Assembly (NCBI GenBank): GCA_003154025.1 | Contig: PMCE01000413.1 | Coordinates: forward strand, 1 to 17,907 | Source: Syntrophaceae bacterium | GTDB lineage: Bacteria > Desulfobacterota > SM23-61 | Direction of reading: 5' to 3' | DNA: 17,907 bases | In this document: positions 5,675 through 8,748 of the stretch, piece after piece | How the letters are laid out: the number at the start of each line of letters is the position of its first letter | How positions within the stretch are numbered: position 1 is the stretch's first letter | Translations under genes and position numbers: made by a program | The notes under the pieces: generated by a model | What the model was told of the DNA's origin: nothing | The model's input: only the letters and a program-made list of their open reading frames with translations | Database searches by the model: none

Positions 5675-5804
5675 TCAAAATGCCCCGCTGATTTCCAAGC
5701 ACTGCCCGGAGACATAATCGGAAAGCACCGAGGCCAGGAAGAGAACGGGTTCCGCCGATGCCCCGCCCGGACCCGGTCACAATCGCCATCCGATCCTTGA
5801 GCAT
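5675..5804 (-). pseudogene. Short-chain dehydrogenase (FabG-like) remnant with large internal deletion
   Basis: From ATG 5804 the frame reads MLKDRMAIVTGSGRGIGG, the unmistakable N-terminus and TGxxxGxG cofactor motif of a short-chain dehydrogenase/reductase. Right after the glycine-rich motif, a different frame takes over and reads EPVLFLASVLSDYVSGQCLE then ISGAF and stop (TGA at 5677-5675). That is the conserved C-terminus of the same family. The first and last ~20-25 residues are therefore joined out of frame, and about 200 codons, including the Ser-Tyr-Lys catalytic core, are gone. It cannot make an enzyme. An assembly collapse is the alternative to a genuine deletion. Confidence 0.8.
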
Positions 5805-5852
5805 CTTTTCCAAAGTCGGTCTCCTCTCTTCGGCAAAGAACAAAAACGATTA

Positions 5853-6052
5853 GCCACAGAGGAAACGGAGATTACCGAGCTTTATTGGAAACCCCCAAAT
5901 CCCAAGCACCAAATCCCAAATAATATCCAAAAATCAATTTCTAAAATTCGGAATCCTGCCGGTAAGAGGTTTAGAAAATTGGATATTGGAATTTATTTGG
6001 ATTTTGGGATTTGGAATTTTTTTATCACTGTCCCCCCTGTGACCTCTGTGGC
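5853..6052. repeat. ~200-bp palindromic repeat element with terminal inverted repeats
   Basis: The element is bounded by GCCACAGAGG (5853-5862) and its exact reverse complement CCTCTGTGGC (6043-6052). Nested inside, in matching order, are CCAAATCCCAAA (5909-5920) with TTTGGGATTTGG (6003-6014), TATCCAA (5924-5930) with TTGGATA (5979-5985), and TTTCTAAA (5938-5945) with TTTAGAAA (5970-5977). The stretch is AT-rich compared with its surroundings and could fold into one long imperfect hairpin. It starts 6 bases after the thiolase stop and may act as that transcript's 3' structure. Short AAATCCCAAA-type and CACAGAGG-type repeats are known as interspersed elements in many environmental genomes; no transposase is present. 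Confidence 0.7.
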
Positions 6053-6058
6053 AAAAAA

Positions 6059-7258
6059 TCATCGTCCTATGATCGCCACGCTGCACACGTTGGTCGAAGG
6101 GATTCCTCCCAGGTTGTGGGTCAGGCCGAAACGGGGGTTCTTCACTCTCCTCTCTTCCGGCCACCTTTCCAGCAGTTGGTTGTACATTTCGTAGAGCATT
6201 CGCAGCCCCGAGGCCCCGATGGGATGGCCGAAGCACTTCAGCCCGCCGTCCGGCTGGCAGGGAAGCTTCCCCTGGAGGTCGAAGAAGCCGTCCAGGATGT
6301 CGTCGATGGATTTCCCCCGGGGCGAAATCTGCAGGTCCTCGTAGACGGTGAGCTCGGTGATGGAGAAGCAGTCGTGGACCTCCATCATGCTGATTTCCTC
6401 CCGCGGGTTTTTGATCCCCGCCTCCTTGAAGGCCATCTGTCCCGCCCGGAAGGTAGTCTCCAGGTGGGCTCCATCCCAGTTGGTGAAAATGGACTCTTCC
6501 CCGGAGGAGACGGAAATGGCCAGGGCCTTCACCAGGACCGGGTCCTTCTTCTTCAACGTCCGGGCGATCTCCGGAGTGGTCACAATGGCCGCCGCCGACC
6601 CGTCGCTGACCCCGCAGCAGTCAAAGAGGCCGAGGGGATAGGCAATCATCGGAGCATTGATGATCTGCTCTTCGGCTACGGCCCTGCGCAGATGCGCTTT
6701 GGGGTTCAGGACGCCGTTGGCGTGGCTCTTGGCCGAAATGTGGGCGATGGCTTTCTTCCCCAGCTTGGGATCGACCTGGTATTTGGCGAAGTAGCTCGTG
6801 GCCAGCTGGGCAAAGAGCCCCGGCGCCGTGGCGTTGGGCCCCACCAGGGCCTGCATCTGGCCGAAGGCGGTGGTCGCCGGAAGTCCGCCGTAGCCGGTGT
6901 CTTTCAGCTTCTCCACCCCCAGGGCCAGGCAGATATCGTACACCCCCGCAGCCACGGCGTAGCAGGCGCCGCGGAAAGCTTCGGTCCCGGTGGCGCAGTA
7001 ATTTTCGGTCCGGGTGACGGGAATGAAGGGAAGTTTCAGGGTAGTGGCCAGGGGTACTCCGCTCTTTCCCACATTCACCTCATCGATGTGGGTCCCGAAC
7101 CAGGCCGCCTGGATTTCCTTTTTTCCGATTCCCGCGTCGGCCAGAGCCTCCTGGAAGGCCTCGATGATCAGGTCCTCGCCGGAAGCCTCCCATCTCTCTC
7201 CAAAGCGGGTGCACCCCATACCCAGAATGGCCACTTTGTCACGAATTCCAGTTGCCAT
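6059..7258 (-). CDS. Thiolase (SCP-x / DUF35-partner type)
   Basis: This 399-residue thiolase-fold protein carries the nucleophilic Cys88 in TENYCATGTEAF, His295 in EVHDCFSITEL and His345 in CFGHPIGASG, so the active site looks intact. The HDCF pattern and the ending NLGGIPSTNVCSVAIIG are typical of SCP-x-like thiolases that work with a DUF35 partner, not of the classical acetyl-CoA acetyltransferases. It would make or cleave a carbon-carbon bond in a 3-oxoacyl-CoA; the substrate is not readable. Its ATG directly follows the TAG of the upstream HMGCS-like::DUF35 gene with no spacer, and the ribosome site (GGAGGTG) lies inside that gene, so synthesis is probably coupled and the two proteins probably form a complex. 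Retention of the Cys argues against the Ltp2-type aldolases, which lack it. Confidence 0.88.
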   Translation of the reverse strand: MATGIRDKVAILGMGCTRFGERWEASGEDLIIEAFQEALADAGIGKKEIQAAWFGTHIDEVNVGKSGVPLATTLKLPFIPVTRTENYCATGTEAFRGACYAVAAGVYDICLALGVEKLKDTGYGGLPATTAFGQMQALVGPNATAPGLFAQLATSYFAKYQVDPKLGKKAIAHISAKSHANGVLNPKAHLRRAVAEEQIINAPMIAYPLGLFDCCGVSDGSAAAIVTTPEIARTLKKKDPVLVKALAISVSSGEESIFTNWDGAHLETTFRAGQMAFKEAGIKNPREEISMMEVHDCFSITELTVYEDLQISPRGKSIDDILDGFFDLQGKLPCQPDGGLKCFGHPIGASGLRMLYEMYNQLLERWPEERRVKNPRFGLTHNLGGIPSTNVCSVAIIGR

Positions 7259-8716
7259 CTATGCCACCTCCATTTGGGGGACTGCTTTCCAGAAATACCC
7301 ATGGATGTCCCGTTTTTCGTCATAGTATTTTTTGCGGAAGCTGAATGCCACTGTCTTTCCCACCTTAAGGTCTTCCAGGGTGCAGTCGGTGAAGTTGCAC
7401 AGGATCCTCCCTCCCCCGTCGAACTCCACGTAGCCGTACAGCTCGGGAGGATCGTAGGAGGCGGCCAGCATATCCCCGGTGTAGCTGAAGATCCGTCCCT
7501 TCTTGTCCGCGAAGGCATAGTCTTCCATCTGGTCCAAAGCCCCGCAATCCGGGTTGGCGCAAATTCTCTGGGGAGGATACTGGGGCGTGCCGCATTTTTT
7601 GCAGCGCGATCCGATGAGCCCCAGAACGGCTTTGCGTTTTCTCCACAGGTAGCTCCAGCGGGTGACGAAATCCGCCTCTCCCCGAAGGCCGATGTCCACC
7701 GGGATTATGCCCCGGAAGACGGCATATTTCTGGTAGCTGTTGAGTTCGGCCCGGTTGGCCAGGTGCCCCTTTACGCCCTTTCGGCCATTGAGTTTGGAAA
7801 TCCCGTCCGTGACCTGAAAATAAAGGGCATCGCAGCCGTTCCCGAAGCTCACCACCAGGAGCCTGTCCCCGGGTTTGGCTTCTTGTAGAGCCTGGGCCAG
7901 CATGATCAGGGACTGGGCGGTCCCCGTCTCCCCGATGGTGTTATGCTGCGGGTCCTGGATCCTGGCCGGGTCCAGTTTCAGGATCTTGGCCAGCTTTCGG
8001 CGCTCCGAATCATAGAGGCACTGGAAGATGATTTTGGAAAAATCGCCGATCTGGACATTACATTTCTTCAGCAGCCCGCCGACCGCCTTGGGGATGAACT
8101 CGTCGAAGCCCAGGTCCCGGATCCAGCGGTCCTCCCACTGACGATCGAAGGTCGTCCGGGAACCCCGGTAATGATCGACGAAATCGCAGGTCAAAGAATA
8201 GGACCCTCTGAATTCCGCGATCGGCCCTTCTTCTCCCACCAGGAAGGAGGCCCCCCCGTCGCCGAAGATCATCTCCTGGGGACTGCCCATCTTGCCCAGA
8301 CGGCAGTCGGCGGTGCAGACCAGGGCCTGCCGCAGACTCCCGGACCCCACCCCCTCCAGGGCCGAGAGGAGAGCCGAGGTTCCCGATTTGAGAGCCCCTG
8401 AAAAATCGGCTGAGCGAATGTCGTCGCGGAGGTTCAGGGCCATGGAAATAATGCCCGAATTCTGCCTTTCCGCGTAGGGCATGGTGGTCGAAGCAAAGTA
8501 GAGGCCATCTACCTTGGACCGGTCGAAACCCTTCAAACAGTCGATACTCGCCTCCGTGGCCATGGTTAGGCTGTCTTCATCCTGGTTGGCCACCGCTTTC
8601 TCCCCCTGGGCCAGCAGGATGTTGGCGGGGTTGATCCAGCCCATGGCCCCGAAGATGGTCATCCGTTTGAGCCGGTAGCGGGGTACATAGGCTCCGAAGG
8701 AAACAATTCCTGCCAT
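7259..8716 (-). CDS. HMG-CoA synthase-like domain fused to DUF35 (Zn ribbon + OB fold), catalytic residues replaced
   Basis: This 485-residue fusion has residues 1-305 following the archaeal HMG-CoA synthase pattern throughout (GIVSFGAYVPRYRLK, EKAVANQDEDSLTMA, KPGDRLLVVSFGNG). Residues about 350-485 are a DUF35 domain with a zinc ribbon (Cys372, 375, 386, 391) and an OB fold. Lining it up by eye with remembered archaeal enzymes, GSESHPYA becomes ASTTMPYA (catalytic Glu to Thr77), EFACKAGT becomes SGALKSGT (nucleophile Cys to Leu109), and VFHQPN becomes IFQCLY (His to Gln232). It is thus probably not an active HMG-CoA synthase but a CoA-binding scaffold for the adjacent thiolase. ATG 8716 is chosen because GGAGG lies 5 bases upstream; the GTG at 8722 touches that site. 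Confidence 0.85.
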   Translation of the reverse strand: MAGIVSFGAYVPRYRLKRMTIFGAMGWINPANILLAQGEKAVANQDEDSLTMATEASIDCLKGFDRSKVDGLYFASTTMPYAERQNSGIISMALNLRDDIRSADFSGALKSGTSALLSALEGVGSGSLRQALVCTADCRLGKMGSPQEMIFGDGGASFLVGEEGPIAEFRGSYSLTCDFVDHYRGSRTTFDRQWEDRWIRDLGFDEFIPKAVGGLLKKCNVQIGDFSKIIFQCLYDSERRKLAKILKLDPARIQDPQHNTIGETGTAQSLIMLAQALQEAKPGDRLLVVSFGNGCDALYFQVTDGISKLNGRKGVKGHLANRAELNSYQKYAVFRGIIPVDIGLRGEADFVTRWSYLWRKRKAVLGLIGSRCKKCGTPQYPPQRICANPDCGALDQMEDYAFADKKGRIFSYTGDMLAASYDPPELYGYVEFDGGGRILCNFTDCTLEDLKVGKTVAFSFRKKYYDEKRDIHGYFWKAVPQMEVA

Positions 8717-8748
8717 AGTCACCTCCTCAAGGGAATGGATTCATCTGT

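Follow-up and report, generated by a model that had tools for sequence, protein, structure and literature searches.

A family of HMG-CoA synthase-like::DUF35 fusion proteins without the catalytic triad, probable non-catalytic partners of the adjacent thiolase

The window, a stretch of 17,907 nucleotides from a Syntrophaceae bacterium, encodes an HMG-CoA synthase (HMGCS)-like domain fused to DUF35 in which the catalytic Glu, Cys and His are all replaced, and which is followed at once by a thiolase that keeps its own active-site residues. The same loss is common to every relative sampled. We think it probable that the dead HMGCS::DUF35 protein is a non-catalytic partner of the thiolase, and that across the family the pair completes beta-oxidation of the peroxisomal multifunctional enzyme type 2 (MFE-2) kind by carrying out its final step. 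Taken part by part, the scaffold role, in which the subunit assembles the thiolase without catalysing, is well supported; the assignment to beta-oxidation is made with moderate confidence across the family, and indirectly for the window itself.

Results

A fusion protein with vacated catalytic positions

The genes and sites of the window on which the analysis turns are as follows.

7262..8716, minus strand: pseudo-HMG-CoA synthase::DUF35 fusion (P0001), 485 amino acids, with its ATG at 8716 and its stop codon at 7259-7261
7697..8716, minus strand: HMGCS-like domain, about residues 1-340
7274..7654, minus strand: DUF35 zinc ribbon and OB fold, about residues 355-481, placed by Pfam and by alignment to 6esq_E
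8722..8728, minus strand: Shine-Dalgarno sequence GAGGAGG, five bases ahead of the ATG, read from the sequence
8486..8488, minus strand: codon of Thr77, at the position of the catalytic Glu82
8390..8392, minus strand: codon of Leu109, at the position of the nucleophilic Cys114
8021..8023, minus strand: codon of Gln232, at the position of the catalytic His238
6059..7258, minus strand: thiolase, 399 amino acids, starting immediately after the pseudo-HMGCS stop codon
8749..9078, minus strand: small conserved protein, 109 amino acids, immediately upstream of the pseudo-HMGCS gene
5678..5813, minus strand: remnant of an SDR (short-chain dehydrogenase) gene, found by tblastn with the SDR proteins of loci L001, L005 and L006

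The sequence-only reading had described an HMGCS-like::DUF35 fusion with an intact gene and a normal zinc ribbon, and this description holds: Pfam finds ACP_syn_III_C, zf-ChsH2 and OB_ChsH2_C in the protein, the frame is whole, and the zinc-ribbon cysteines Cys372, Cys375, Cys386 and Cys391 are all present, each of the four being kept in 135 of 142 family rows. The same reading held that the HMGCS framework was retained and that Thr77, Leu109 and Gln232 had replaced the catalytic Glu, Cys and His. In agreement with the first point, NCBIfam HMGCS models give near full-length matches and a structural model of the protein superposes on 6esq_I, the archaeal HMGCS. The second was confirmed by alignment to the same enzyme, in which the three residues stand at Glu82, Cys114 and His238, with no intact Glu, Cys or His at the active-site positions of the archaeal complex. 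An intact triad masked by misalignment was ruled out, HMMER pairwise and MAFFT alignments being in accord. We take His238, placed by its motif, to be the catalytic histidine of 6esq_I. Glu82 and Cys114 are named as key residues of archaeal HMG-CoA synthase in the available text of the PhlACB study (PMC6392133).

The AlphaFold2 model of the window protein (60-row alignment; pLDDT 87.2, pTM 0.90) superposes best on 6esq_I (Z 44.6 over 334 residues, 2.1 A), followed by the PhlA-type chains (Z 41.7-42.6) and the MucABC chain (Z 39.7), so that the modelled fold is that of the HMGCS-like family. Ranked by Foldseek E-value, 9skh_C comes first and 6esq_I narrowly second, and the best solved match by sequence is 9skh_A, the PhlA of CsATase (7.1e-38), with 6esq_I at 6.4e-34. 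The residue register given above is that of the sequence alignments, because the structural superposition spans the domain and gives no residue pairs.

Around the pair, the 109-residue upstream protein gave zero family matches in Pfam and NCBIfam searches; it carries a CCGTGGC motif, and its cluster is present in 12 of 50 loci, Actinomycetota loci among them, directly upstream of the pair in 11. An open frame of 625 codons runs antisense to the pair (6011-7888, plus strand) and has a counterpart of 1014 codons in locus L062; base composition and codon use probably account for such frames. Promoter and terminator scans returned sites no more numerous than in shuffled sequences.

Triad loss is the conserved trait of the family

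We compared 142 rows, drawn from 49 loci, 12 regions and a further 80 regions together with the window (L139, a 100-base placeholder among the 80, contained no gene, and L151 gave two rows). Rows were selected for their similarity to the window protein and, by hand, to give a spread over part of the matches listed, and some loci are present twice, for example L005/L086 and L034/L087. The controls were archaeal HMGCS relatives, the best 120 of the matches listed in a separate search, 73-100% identical to 6esq_I; some of them carry names, and those named are methanogens. All three triad residues are kept in 120/120 of these best-listed controls, and none of the 142 family rows has Glu, Cys or His at any of the three sites, at identities down to about 29% (the Glu, Cys and His sites are gapped in 2, 3 and 0 rows, respectively). 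The sequence-only reading had raised the question whether homologues next to thiolases share the T/L/Q pattern. What they share is the absence of the triad, in 142/142; the exact combination occurs in 9/142 rows and was rejected as a family signature. Judged from these alignments, the conserved trait is the loss of the triad and not T/L/Q itself. The 121 closest proteins all have Thr77; at position 109 they carry Leu, Ile, Met, Val or Pro, and at position 232 Pro, Gln, Asp, Ser or Ala. Over all 142 rows the Cys site is occupied by Leu, Ile, Thr, Gln, Ala and others, and the His site by Pro, Tyr, Asp, Gln, Ala, Ser and others.

This variability bears on the idea of a repurposed enzyme, in which the old pocket would support a new chemistry, such as acyl hydrolysis, decarboxylation or transfer, on Arg139, Asp153 and Glu195. 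These polar residues are conserved in 136, 134 and 123 of the 142 rows, respectively, and differ from those of archaeal HMGCS, which could point to a new activity. However, variable residues at the lost Cys and His sites are what a pocket without catalysis there should have, and Arg139, which the family has in common with PhlA, is found in a protein that takes no direct part in acyl transfer, as far as the accessible portion of PMC6392133 describes it; we regard a repurposed pocket as unlikely. All of the 121 close proteins have Cys233, adjacent to the lost His, but many of the distant rows lack it, and for that reason we do not take it to be catalytic.

Other positions point to what the subunit may have kept. 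Mth Tyr272, present in 120/120 of the controls (the best 120 of the matches listed), is replaced by Gly in 142/142 family rows and likewise in the solved relatives 5m3k_A, 9skh_A and 9vbo_A. Mth Arg203, by comparison, is present in 120/120 of the same best-listed controls and in 130/142 family rows, and its position is Gly in 5m3k_A and 9skh_A and Asn in 9vbo_A. Residues of archaeal HMGCS that persist in the family but are missing from the CoA-independent PhlA suggest, on conservation grounds, that CoA may still be bound; the retention of Arg203 would fit continued CoA use, and from the conservation pattern Mth Arg203 and Tyr12 might be CoA binders.

These comparisons also bear on whether the pair could be a CoA-independent C-acyltransferase like PhlACB or MucABC, moving an acyl group between small molecules instead of cleaving a 3-ketoacyl-CoA. 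The same kind of residue loss is seen there, and, as described above, the PhlA of CsATase tops the sequence matches and 9skh_C the Foldseek ranking. Nevertheless, in an unrooted tree of the HMGCS domain the solved acyltransferase chains 5m3k_A, 9skh_A and 9vbo_A branch together (0.988) beside the 142 family rows (0.936), and this separate branch means that the family is not PhlA; moreover, Arg203 is kept in the family and lost in those chains, the window thiolase is nearer to the archaeal thiolase than to PhlC, and the neighbours of the relatives are acyl-CoA genes. An acyltransferase of this type is accordingly, in our estimate, quite improbable.

A decaying, functionless copy of the gene is scarcely conceivable. 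The SDR gene beside the pair is broken in the window, as in a decaying locus, but dN/dS of the pseudo-HMGCS gene is about 0.08-0.09 against both L001 and L002 (Nei-Gojobori, by script; 92% protein identity), which shows that it is not decaying and rules this reading out; the frame, start signal and domains are intact, and the triad loss is shared by the whole sample. The thiolase gene gives about 0.06 in the same two comparisons. Matches at E <= 1e-10, part of which were inspected, turned up in 82 of 247 genomes sampled from the phylum that includes Desulfosarcina alkanivorans and in 38 of 246 from that of an actinobacterial MAG, the two samples together including at least 8 genomes already represented among the loci.

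A place in the mevalonate pathway is improbable

That the protein is a real HMG-CoA synthase which uses other residues and serves the mevalonate pathway is highly improbable. NCBIfam HMGCS models do match it nearly end to end, and one of ten relative genomes (G006) has HMG-CoA reductase. The scores of the window protein, however, fall below the cut-offs of both archaeal-type models (NF003274, 215.1 against 244; TIGR00748, 161.8 against 353.35) as well as of TIGR01835 (48.7 against 360.35), and every row sampled has lost the catalytic positions. Of the relative genomes, only that 1/10 has HMG-CoA reductase and 10/10 have DXP reductoisomerase, and in 8 relative genomes there was no archaeal-type HMGCS above the cut-off; these counts, all from relatives, speak against a mevalonate role.

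The point matters for annotation. A paralogue, P0126 (L067:1623-3080, minus strand), has T/I/S at the triad positions, yet scores 250.8 against the NCBIfam HMG-CoA synthase cut-off of 244, so that automatic annotation would call a triad-less protein an active enzyme. Many family proteins are named hydroxymethylglutaryl-CoA synthase in their source records, and the family of the window gene is probably misnamed in databases; mevalonate-pathway predictions that relied on such names would be wrong.

The partner thiolase keeps its active site

The thiolase of the window has Cys88, His295, Cys297 and His345, scores 652 bits with NCBIfam NF004810 (cut-off 403), and has as its best solved match 6esq_A, the archaeal acetoacetyl-CoA thiolase (1.1e-50), PhlC being weaker (6e-21). 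A thiolase gene starts at most 300 nt downstream of the pseudo-HMGCS gene, or overlaps it, in 133 of 142 rows. The other nine rows comprise one in which the contig stops inside the thiolase (L007), three in which it stops before the thiolase (L030, L046, L164), two with scaffold gaps directly downstream of the pseudo-HMGCS gene (L060, L061), one with the thiolase 1.6 kb off (L137), and two loci of a single genome (L130 and L131, G105) with zero thiolase genes within the 10 kb fetched around each. Genome G105 has four matches, of which L127, L130 and L131 were sampled.

Among the partner thiolases the nucleophilic Cys is present in 133/133 (the 6esq_A control row excluded); the His and Cys of the HDCF motif are present in 124/124, and the His of GHx in 123/123, of those whose open frame reaches these sites. 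Ten thiolase rows are incomplete. Six end with the contig (L026, L031, L041, L066, L068, L070), and that of L049 meets a gap and then runs off the contig. In L047, L099 and L107 the thiolase frame is broken, with HDC and GH motifs in the remainder and a whole pseudo-HMGCS frame; these may be either sequencing faults or real breaks. Judging by the conserved residues, the rows sampled have retained one of the active sites of the archaeal complex and given up the other.

In addition, the two proteins diverge jointly. From 121 full-length pairs, 116 remained once near-duplicates had been dropped, and these gave a Mantel r of 0.917, with none of 999 shuffles above 0.195; as r is inflated by shared species history, it speaks for joint inheritance and not for contact.

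The neighbourhoods of relatives suggest a beta-oxidation setting

The neighbourhoods of 49 loci and the window were grouped into gene clusters by similarity, one or a few members of each being checked with Pfam. Over these 50 loci the clusters comprised SDR (25 loci), acyl-CoA dehydrogenase (20), enoyl-CoA hydratase (15), AMP-ligase (12), MFE-2-type hydratase (9) and 3-hydroxyacyl-CoA dehydrogenase (7). At least one of these six beta-oxidation clusters was found in 38/50 loci and none in 12/50, the window among the latter; for loci of at least 12 kb, with the window left out, the figure was 26/28. As a check on chance proximity, the seven pseudo-HMGCS copies of four genomes were examined: four have an MFE-2 hydratase gene within 10 kb (in each case within 4 kb), against a random expectation of 0.05, and the three copies without one are in G010 and G012. 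Acyl-CoA dehydrogenase genes number 18-37 in each of 4 genomes, and this abundance makes their presence near the pair weak evidence for the setting.

In the window itself, zero of the six clusters lie beside the pair and only the SDR remnant is present, so that the pathway is assigned by way of the relatives. An SDR gene follows the thiolase in L001, L005 and L006, of which the window keeps about the first 20 and the last 27 codons; the loss could reflect either a genuine deletion or faulty assembly. With this gene reduced to a remnant, the pathway claim is weaker for the genome of the window.

Fusions to a dehydrogenase, MFE-2-like in the example scanned

In 11 of the 142 rows the chain runs past DUF35 into an SDR domain, with a tail of 425-446 residues in ten of the 11 fusions and one cut by a scaffold gap (L061). 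The one fusion scanned, P0122 of Desulfosarcina alkanivorans, was found by Pfam to contain SDR and SCP2 domains. Its SDR part has as its best solved matches (3R)-hydroxyacyl-CoA dehydrogenase (2et6) and 17-beta-hydroxysteroid dehydrogenase 4 (1zbq, 1gz6), and also matches peroxisomal multifunctional enzyme type 2 (3oml). For 7 of the 11 fusions the same locus contains a hydratase-2 frame of 704-769 amino acids, and the one scanned is a hydratase-2::SDR::SCP2 protein. The two genes of Desulfosarcina alkanivorans adjoin.

L062:3553-6303, minus strand: pseudo-HMGCS::DUF35::SDR::SCP2, adjoining the next gene
L062:6304-8424, minus strand: hydratase-2::SDR::SCP2

The SDR::SCP2 parts of these two proteins are 67.5% identical over 416 residues. 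By their likeness, the pair in L062 looks like a module duplicated within one operon, and the dead HMGCS seems to have acquired a copy of the dehydrogenase module. Such copying would place steps three and four of beta-oxidation on one complex. In the nine loci where the sequence allows the comparison, the thiolase remains a separate gene beside the fusion.

Discussion

The sequence-only reading had proposed a pseudo-enzyme that serves as a scaffold for the adjacent thiolase. This proposal gains support from the family-wide loss of the triad, from purifying selection on the gene and from the intact thiolase; it also fits the joint divergence of the pair and the solved precedent of PhlA.

In the mechanism that we favour, the subunit would assemble the thiolase, supply part of the CoA/acyl site and couple the thiolase to the preceding dehydrogenation. 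By analogy with PhlACB and the archaeal complex, DUF35 would tie the HMGCS-like part to the thiolase, with CoA at the junction, an arrangement drawn from the sections of PMC6392133 and PMC12329534 at hand. Conserved residues suggest that Cys88 of the thiolase would do the chemistry, and the vacated HMGCS pocket would probably form a chamber that houses CoA and the acyl chain. The neighbours and fusions suggest that the pair would most likely cleave, thiolytically, the 3-ketoacyl-CoA coming from a hydroxyacyl-CoA dehydrogenase, an enzyme that in some relatives appears to be fused to the pseudo-HMGCS subunit itself.

A more specific version, which we put forward tentatively and hold to be possible though not the likelier case, is that the large family of dead HMGCS proteins forms a docking and acyl-holding module for beta-oxidation, which would take the 3-ketoacyl-CoA from a (3R)-hydroxyacyl-CoA dehydrogenase, carried in some lineages on the same chain with an SCP2 lipid carrier, and deliver it to the thiolase by means of a shared CoA arm. 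If this were true, the archaeal channel would be run in the direction of breakdown, and the bacteria would possess an equivalent of the peroxisomal MFE-2/SCP2-thiolase machinery that handles bulky lipids. With an active archaeal relative and the dead PhlA both solved for comparison, the family is a natural case for testing how an enzyme that has lost its activity turns into a structural or channelling part, and it could bear on lipid or hydrocarbon breakdown by sulphate reducers and their relatives.

Comparison with known systems

The open-access literature that we searched yielded no description of the fused pseudo-HMGCS::DUF35 family, and several solved or described systems resemble it in part. 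The archaeal acetoacetyl-CoA thiolase/HMGCS/DUF35 complex (M. thermolithotrophicus, 6ESQ/6ET9) has all three components in common with it, and Arg17, Arg191 and Arg203 are common to archaeal HMGCS and the window protein; archaeal HMGCS, however, retains Glu, Cys and His and has an unfused DUF35, whereas the window protein is without the triad and fused.

PhlA of PhlACB (PpATase, Pseudomonas protegens; 5M3K/5MG5) is similar in that the catalytic Glu and Cys are missing and the Cys of the partner thiolase is intact. According to the part of PMC6392133 available, the PhlACB subunit layout is very similar to that of the archaeal complex, PhlC residues alone take part in acyl transfer, PhlA being without the Cys and Glu, and the pathway is an antibiotic one that is independent of CoA. 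On the other hand, PhlB is a separate protein in PhlACB and in CsATase (9SKH), whereas DUF35 is fused in the family; at the Glu position PhlA has Cys, and the window protein Thr; and PhlA is without the Mth Arg203 that the family retains. MucABC (Streptococcus macacae, 9VBO/9VBT), a multi-component acyltransferase by the title of its structure, has an HMGCS-like chain, 9vbo_A, with Cys, Glu and Gln at the Glu, Cys and His positions and 22% identity to the window protein over the aligned part. In the passages of PMC10161427 available, MucABC acetylates a tetramate natural product. Its chain branches with PhlA and apart from the family rows.

Pairs of DUF35 and thiolase are also known from degradation. 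The BbsAB and ChsH2-Ltp2 pairs are not known to include an HMGCS component. In the accessible descriptions neither BbsAB nor ChsH2-Ltp2 has an HMGCS-like component, whereas the window protein has one in residues 1-340. In BbsAB, the benzoylsuccinyl-CoA thiolase, and in ChsH2/Shy with Ltp2/Sal, DUF35 binds an enzyme of thiolase fold, and the pathways are degradative, as far as the text of PMC12329534 at hand relates. Finally, the likeness to peroxisomal MFE-2 (HSD17B4) and SCP2-thiolase lies in the MFE-2 type of the P0122 SDR and in the hydratase-2 and SCP2 of the operon. The eukaryotic MFE-2 system presumably has no HMGCS or DUF35 part and a domain order different from that of the bacterial fusion. 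A dead HMGCS-like subunit within a thiolase/HMGCS/DUF35 complex is already known from PhlA; what is new here is the breadth of the family, its fusion to DUF35 and its beta-oxidation setting.
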